The notes below the pieces were generated by a model that ran no database searches, was not told the origin of the DNA, and saw only the letters and a program-made list of their open reading frames with translations. Below, piece after piece: positions 46,485 through 47,107 of a DNA stretch of 64,000 nucleotides; the stretch's first letter is position 1, and the number at the start of each line of letters is the position of its first letter. The stretch spans positions 1 through 64,000 of the forward strand of contig JANWVV010000001.1 in the NCBI GenBank assembly GCA_025055795.1. Direction: 5' to 3'. The DNA is from Gemmataceae bacterium (GTDB lineage: Bacteria > Planctomycetota > Planctomycetia > Gemmatales > Gemmataceae). Made by a program: the position numbers and the translations under genes.

Positions 46485-46503
46485 AGGGATTTTGCAAATC
46501 CCT
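46485..46503 (+). other. hairpin upstream of rsfS leader
   Basis: AGGGATTT and AAATCCCT form an 8-bp stem with a 3-nt loop. It sits just before a TTGACT box (46506-46511), so it could be an operator or the end of an upstream transcript. It has no following T-run. Confidence 0.35.
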
Positions 46504-46539
46504 GCTTGACTTCTGGGCAAGGCGCGGGGAAGATACTAG

Positions 46540-46566
46540 TAAGATGAAGTCTAAACCTTCATCTTA
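46540..46566 (+). other. leader hairpin P1 of rsfS
   Basis: TAAGATGAAG and CTTCATCTTA form a perfect 10-bp stem with a 7-nt loop. It lies at the presumed start of the rsfS leader. It is not followed by a T-run, so it is more likely a leader structure or stability element than a terminator. Confidence 0.5.
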
Positions 46567-46593
46567 TCAGGTAGGGCATGGTCTGTCAGGACC

Positions 46594-46702
46594 CCGGAGG
46601 TGTAACCACGATCCAGCGACAACAGGTGAGTGTCATCAACGCATGTAGCACCGGTAGAGACACCTCCGGAAATGCATCCCCGACCCTGAAGGAGGTGTCT
46701 TG
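46594..46702 (+). promoter_or_regulatory. candidate bistable RNA switch controlling rsfS translation
   Basis: The segment AGACACCTCC (46658-46667) can pair with GGAGGTGTCT (46691-46700), a 10-bp stem that sequesters the Shine-Dalgarno and abuts the TTG start. The overlapping ACACCTCCGG (46660-46669) can instead pair with CCGGAGGTGT (46594-46603), also 10 bp, which would free the Shine-Dalgarno. The two helices are mutually exclusive. This is the layout of a translational riboswitch or a protein- or temperature-controlled leader. I recognise no known riboswitch class. The complementarities are seen directly; function is inferred. Confidence 0.5.
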
Positions 46703-47107
46703 AGTACTGCCGTGATGATTGCTCCTGCTCCGCGTTCGGTTTCTCGTTCCCTTCCCAGTGCCCTGCAACGGGCTTGTCTCGCTGCCAAGGTGGCCGCCGA
46801 GAACAAAGGTCAGGATGTGCTGGTCCTCGACATGCGTGGGCTGACACCGCTGTACGACTTTTTTGTCATTTCTACCGGTCTCAGCCGCCGGCAAATGCAC
46901 ACCGTGGTCGAGGAAACGGATGCCGCCTTGCGTGCGGTTGGCGACAGCCGGCTAGGCATCGAAGGCTATGAGTCCAGTCGCTGGATCGTGCAGGACTATG
47001 GCGATGTAGTCGTGCACGTCTTCGACCCAGATACACGCGATTACTACAAACTGGAGGAATTGTGGGCGGACGCCCCGCGCATTGACTGGGAAAACGAAAT
47101 CGTCTGA
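46700..47107 (+). CDS. rsfS: ribosomal silencing factor RsfS
   Basis: RsfS (Iojap/DUF143) binds ribosomal protein uL14 on the large subunit and blocks subunit joining in starvation. The 135-residue product has the family core: AENKGQDVLVLDMRGLTPL (about 34-52), DFFVISTGLSRRQMHTVVE, EGYESSRWIVQDYGDVVVHV and YYKLEELWADAP. Length is normal, with a 20-residue N-terminal extension. TTG at 46700 is used because GGAGG is 4 nt upstream and later starts lack a site. The leader carries the candidate switch described separately. It is an isolated plus-strand gene. Confidence 0.92.
   Translation: MSTAVMIAPAPRSVSRSLPSALQRACLAAKVAAENKGQDVLVLDMRGLTPLYDFFVISTGLSRRQMHTVVEETDAALRAVGDSRLGIEGYESSRWIVQDYGDVVVHVFDPDTRDYYKLEELWADAPRIDWENEIV

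Follow-up and report, generated by a model that had tools for sequence, protein, structure and literature searches.

The window, a stretch of 64,000 nucleotides, carries rsfS, the gene for the ribosomal silencing factor, at positions 46700..47107 of the forward strand, on which all features described here lie. The product was assigned to RsfS, a near-universal ribosome-silencing factor (Pfam RsfS, E=2e-29), in agreement with the gene call of an earlier, sequence-only reading of this DNA. The start codon is UUG at 46700, 4 nt 3′ of GGAGG (46691-46695), and the segment GGAGGTGTCT (46691..46700) comprises this Shine-Dalgarno (SD) and the first base of the start codon. The leader is present as a single copy in the host genome. 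A UUG start (46700-46702 in the window) was found at 95 of 96 rsfS loci of the planctomycete order Gemmatales, to which the host belongs, including genera without the upstream ORF described below, a constancy that is uncommon for a start codon.

Upstream of rsfS, a sigma-70-like promoter is found at 46506..46534 (TTGACT at 46506-46511, a 17 nt spacer, and GAAGAT at 46529-46534). At the expected transcript start lies a hairpin of 10 bp with a 7-nt loop (46540..46566, arms 46540-46549/46557-46566), which the sequence-only reading had already described as perfectly paired; hairpins of differing sequence occupy the same place in other genera, for example GGTGCGG..CCGCACC. A second, short hairpin, GGTC-N6-GACC (46580..46593), is longer in some relatives, for example GGACTGG..CCAGTCC. 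It directly precedes CCGGAGGTGT (46594..46603), which holds a further SD, GGAGG (46596-46600). Seven nt 3′ of this GGAGG is an ACG (46608..46610), the proposed non-canonical start of an upstream ORF (uORF) of 31 codons (46608..46703), whose TGA stop (46701-46703) overlaps the UUG of rsfS. If ACG is indeed a start, a short ORF with its own SD lies between promoter and rsfS.

The strand AGACACCTCCGG (46658..46669), within the uORF, has an anti-SD sequence and two possible partners. Its positions 46658-46667 pair with the rsfS SD segment (46691-46700), and its positions 46660-46669 pair with the uORF SD segment (46594-46603), so that the two mutually exclusive 10-bp stems on which the sequence-only reading was built are present as described. 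Both long-range duplexes scored better than 100 of 100 dinucleotide shuffles. Folding of 46530-46720 favoured pairing with the upstream GGAGG, and folding of 46540-46730 favoured pairing with the rsfS SD (−64.0 versus −60.1 kcal/mol). The two predicted full-leader states differ by no more than about 4 kcal/mol, and which of them ranks first depends on the segment folded. The folding check suggested with the earlier reading thus recovers both stems at close energies, but the stability of the whole leader exceeds that of shuffled sequences only modestly (z −1.5), and the claim therefore rests on conservation and not on folding energy alone.

Conservation of the proposed ACG upstream ORF in Gemmatales

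RsfS was searched for in 102 genomes of the Gemmatales and the leaders were then fetched, which gave 96 rsfS leaders for comparison. These were scanned for an SD followed, after 5-9 nt, by an ACG with a frame open up to the rsfS start. Such an arrangement was found in 54 species of 23 genera, compared to 2.0 expected from shuffled leaders, and a stricter form with GGAGG in 45 species of 20 genera, compared to 0.25. Replacement of ACG by any other sense codon in the scan gave at most 19 leaders and 4 genera. Most of the leaders with the ACG-uORF have a second GGAGG 75-105 nt 5′ of rsfS. Over 22 genera, all three bases of the ACG reach 2.00 bits, and the only fully invariant positions are the ACG and the C at −2. 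This C (46606 in the window) is invariant despite the varying SD spacing; its constancy goes beyond the needs of a plain start codon and leaves room for an RNA motif other than a start. A conserved candidate start other than AUG, GUG or UUG is found for the uORF, and not for rsfS itself.

In genus g17, the ACG is replaced by a GTG behind a new, second SD, and one leader (L008) has an ATG uORF at the same position, which is what an ACG serving as start codon would predict. Two leaders of genus g37 in family f2 (L058 and L064) carry short ORFs of the form GGAGG-N9-ATT or N10-TTG in the same place. About 20 of the 43 Gemmatales genera have no ACG-uORF. Its carriers are dispersed on the RsfS tree and include members of both families of the order, hence it is probably ancestral, with several losses.

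The conserved promoter, CTTGAC-N17-GATGAT, is kept in nearly all leaders, about 92-160 nt 5′ of the ACG. A transcription start downstream of 46603, which the sequence-only reading had named as fatal to its proposal, is unlikely, since this promoter precedes all the leader elements.

No other match to GGAGG-N3-5-CMACGA in the host genome precedes a gene in this way. An ORF of 41 codons starting with ACG and overlapping the GTG of a polyprenyl diphosphate synthase-like gene (L155:444-1510, reverse strand) was considered and set aside as probably due to chance; it was not seen in relatives.

Conservation of the reading frame

The distance between the ACG and the UUG of rsfS was 68, 71, 77, 80, 83, 86, 89 or 92 nt, all of one class modulo 3, or else 76, 79 or 82 nt, a second class in which the frame ends at a TGA before the rsfS SD. 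In this phase test, for which leaders were not selected for an open frame, the 11 distinct lengths fell into these two classes. The exceptions were L047, L004 and L043, in which the class had changed and a stop in their own frame was found at +4 or −9. The genera fall into two sets by the stop of the uORF, which is the UGA on the UUG of rsfS in one and the TGA of CCCTGAAGGAGG in the other, Gemmata-like set. Spacers 5′ of the ACG vary freely, whereas the ACG-UUG lengths change almost only in steps of three. For instance, in genus g16 the promoter-to-ACG distance (105-109 nt) takes all three classes modulo 3, and the ACG-UUG distance a single class in 18 of 19 species.

Openness of the frame, taken alone, was rejected as weak evidence because stops are rare in GC-rich leaders, the off-frames being open in 26 and 35 of 44 leaders. 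The argument for the frame therefore rests on the shuffle test, in which the joint chance of openness was 0.003 over 19 genera, and on the phase test, which appears the stronger of the two. Conservation of the frame among relatives, a property of uORF attenuators, is thus found by both. No coding selection on the uORF peptide was detected (pN/pS about 1 in every frame), and the peptide is not conserved. It would therefore be the act of translation that is kept, rather than its product.

Conservation of the pairing

The sequence CCTCC occurs within the uORF in 38 of 54 species, compared to 8.2 expected. To follow the flanking pairs, the three strands were aligned without gaps in 31 sequences from 16 genera, the core being invariant by construction as the blocks were anchored on it. 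Covariation is here supportive but not decisive, as the shuffles keep the relatedness among sequences: pairs flanking the core between the anti-SD strand and the rsfS SD covaried more strongly than in 499 of 500 shuffles, and their score peaked clearly at slide 0, the correct register, while covariation between the uORF SD and the anti-SD strand was modest, its score being reached by 26 of 500 shuffles. The upstream stem of the window shows a compensatory double change in the sister species (L002/L003), CCGGAGGTGT/ACACCTCCGG becoming CCGGAGGCGC/GCGCCTCCGG. The covariation called for by the sequence-only reading is hence clear for the stem with the rsfS SD and weaker for the other. The strand that it had proposed to mask the rsfS SD stands, given its enrichment, its covariation and its alternative partner. 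A structure able to mask the downstream SD and overlapping the uORF is thereby present.

Among 36 leaders folded, the stem with the uORF SD was preferred in 23 and the stem with the rsfS SD in 11. The predicted dominant pairing varies among species, and the switch is therefore kept as a choice, and not as one fixed fold.

Discussion

Judging from the promoter, the ACG, the conserved frame, the overlap with rsfS and the conserved pairing options, we consider it reasonably probable that this region, the 5′ leader of rsfS, works as a uORF-coupled translational attenuator with initiation at a non-canonical ACG gating rsfS. We infer use of the ACG as a start, translation of the uORF and, through it, activation of rsfS. 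Transcription from the promoter would give a transcript starting near 46540, on which the upstream SD and the ACG would direct translation of the uORF up to its UGA on the rsfS UUG. The shared strand could pair with the SD of the uORF or with that of rsfS. A ribosome reading the uORF would melt this strand and terminate on the rsfS start, and rsfS would then be expressed by re-initiation or from the unmasked SD. When the uORF is not translated, the rsfS SD could be masked.

One E. coli study reports that ACG works about 0.1-1.5% as well as AUG (PMC6925171). Non-canonical start codons are reported to be disfavoured by IF3, which also impedes docking of the 50S on them (PMC4611024), and re-initiation to be reduced when IF3 is in excess (PMC2268962). 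On more speculative grounds, ACG as a near-cognate codon is expected to be rejected by IF3, and the gate would respond to how stringent initiation is and how fast the 50S joins; the leader would in this manner sense initiation stringency or 50S availability. RsfS blocks the association of 50S with 30S (PMC7125091), so that, again speculatively, it could exert a negative feedback on its own synthesis, like infC with its non-AUG start. If RsfS or IF3 lowers initiation at the ACG, synthesis of RsfS would be lowered. The opposite sign is also possible, with a 30S held on the ACG freeing the shared strand to mask rsfS. More tentatively still, and with less confidence than the attenuator itself, we suggest that the ACG may have been kept through the history of the order as a sensor, slow initiation opposed by IF3 reporting on free 50S and stringency and setting RsfS through the coupling, in a feedback loop.

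An unusual initiator tRNA reading ACG was not found among the 41 host tRNAs, whose assignments are ordinary; the initiator has the usual CAU anticodon, and the Thr-CGU tRNA looks like an elongator. In bacteria, the initiator tRNA usually has three consecutive G:C pairs in the anticodon stem. At 29 planctomycete loci (L143:1501-1576, L288-L317) this stem has A29:U41 followed by two G:C pairs (NNAGG..CCUNN).

The sequence-only reading had proposed the leader as a candidate bistable switch, for which control by a nutrient, a protein or temperature seemed plausible. The alternative masking strand is conserved, as it supposed. The free-standing riboswitch is not supported: no Rfam family reached its gathering score anywhere in the window, so that no known aptamer family is matched, and the competing stem masks a second SD. 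This SD belongs to an apparent ACG uORF that includes the switching strand and terminates at the start of rsfS. The more natural effector is a translating ribosome rather than a metabolite. One could still suppose that the leader is untranslated, GGAGG-N-CnACGA and the hairpins forming a site for a protein or a small molecule, with the ligand choosing the stem. The invariance of the ACG together with C(−2), the hairpins kept though their sequence changes, and the lack of conservation of the peptide would all fit such a site. It fails, however, to predict the conserved phase between ACG and UUG, the overlap of stop and start, the SD-like spacing of 5-9 nt and the replacement by ATG or GTG ORFs in other genera; together with the lack of an Rfam match and the single copy of the leader, this makes it rather unlikely.

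Less likely still is a genuine uORF with a different in-frame start (GTG, TTG, CTG or ATC downstream, or ATG upstream), the ACG being kept for some other reason. The window does have an in-frame ATG (46578) 10 codons 5′ of the ACG, and GTG is codon 4 in many g16 species, but 11 of the 54 uORFs have no in-frame ATG, GTG or TTG, 23 of 54 have none in codons 2-10, and the ACG, preceded by a TGA two codons earlier in several species (L011, L030, L083), is alone in being invariant and at SD distance. As for a chance pairing of ordinary SD-like sequences, without function and confined to one species, the modest z-score of the whole leader and the generic match of GGAGG with CCTCC would be in its favour. 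The pairing recurs with covariation in 16 genera, and both window stems had a shuffle p of 0/100. This last explanation, which is already contradicted by the conservation data, is very improbable.

The attenuator proposed here resembles several known systems. In infC (IF3) autoregulation, a gene for initiation and anti-association is likewise gated by a start codon that IF3 rejects, and the host infC itself seems to begin with ATC. At its SD, this gene (L113) appears to offer neither ATG nor GTG, and its likely start is an ATC after AAGGAGACCTGGCA, which holds AAGGAG. In the rsfS leader, by contrast, the odd codon is ACG, without a central U, and it starts a short uORF instead of the regulated gene; control by IF3 is proposed there by analogy. 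The E. coli toiL uORF upstream of topAI also alters, when translated, a structure masking a downstream ribosome binding site, and senses ribosomes stalled by antibiotics (PMC12121999), whereas the rsfS uORF runs into the start of rsfS, has an unconserved peptide and is unusual in its start codon. As in coupling or re-initiation at overlapping stops and starts (PMC2268962, PMC10666635), the UGA overlaps the rsfS UUG with a strong SD nearby, but here ACG is the apparent start of the upstream cistron, within which lies a strand able to mask either SD. With SD-sequestering riboswitches and thermosensors, the leader shares mutually exclusive stems hiding or freeing an SD; it differs from such riboswitches in matching no Rfam aptamer and in having as alternative partner a second functional-looking SD.

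To our knowledge, bacterial start codons are described as having a central U in common, and ACG is not called by automatic annotation. Neither an rsfS leader nor a conserved bacterial ACG-uORF was the subject of any paper that we found in the open-access literature. A deeply conserved ORF started by ACG would, if true, mean that evolution has put a near-forbidden codon to regulatory use. In addition, as far as our search of that literature shows, it would be the first described cis-control of rsfS, in which the ribosomes themselves probably set how much of the silencing protein is made.
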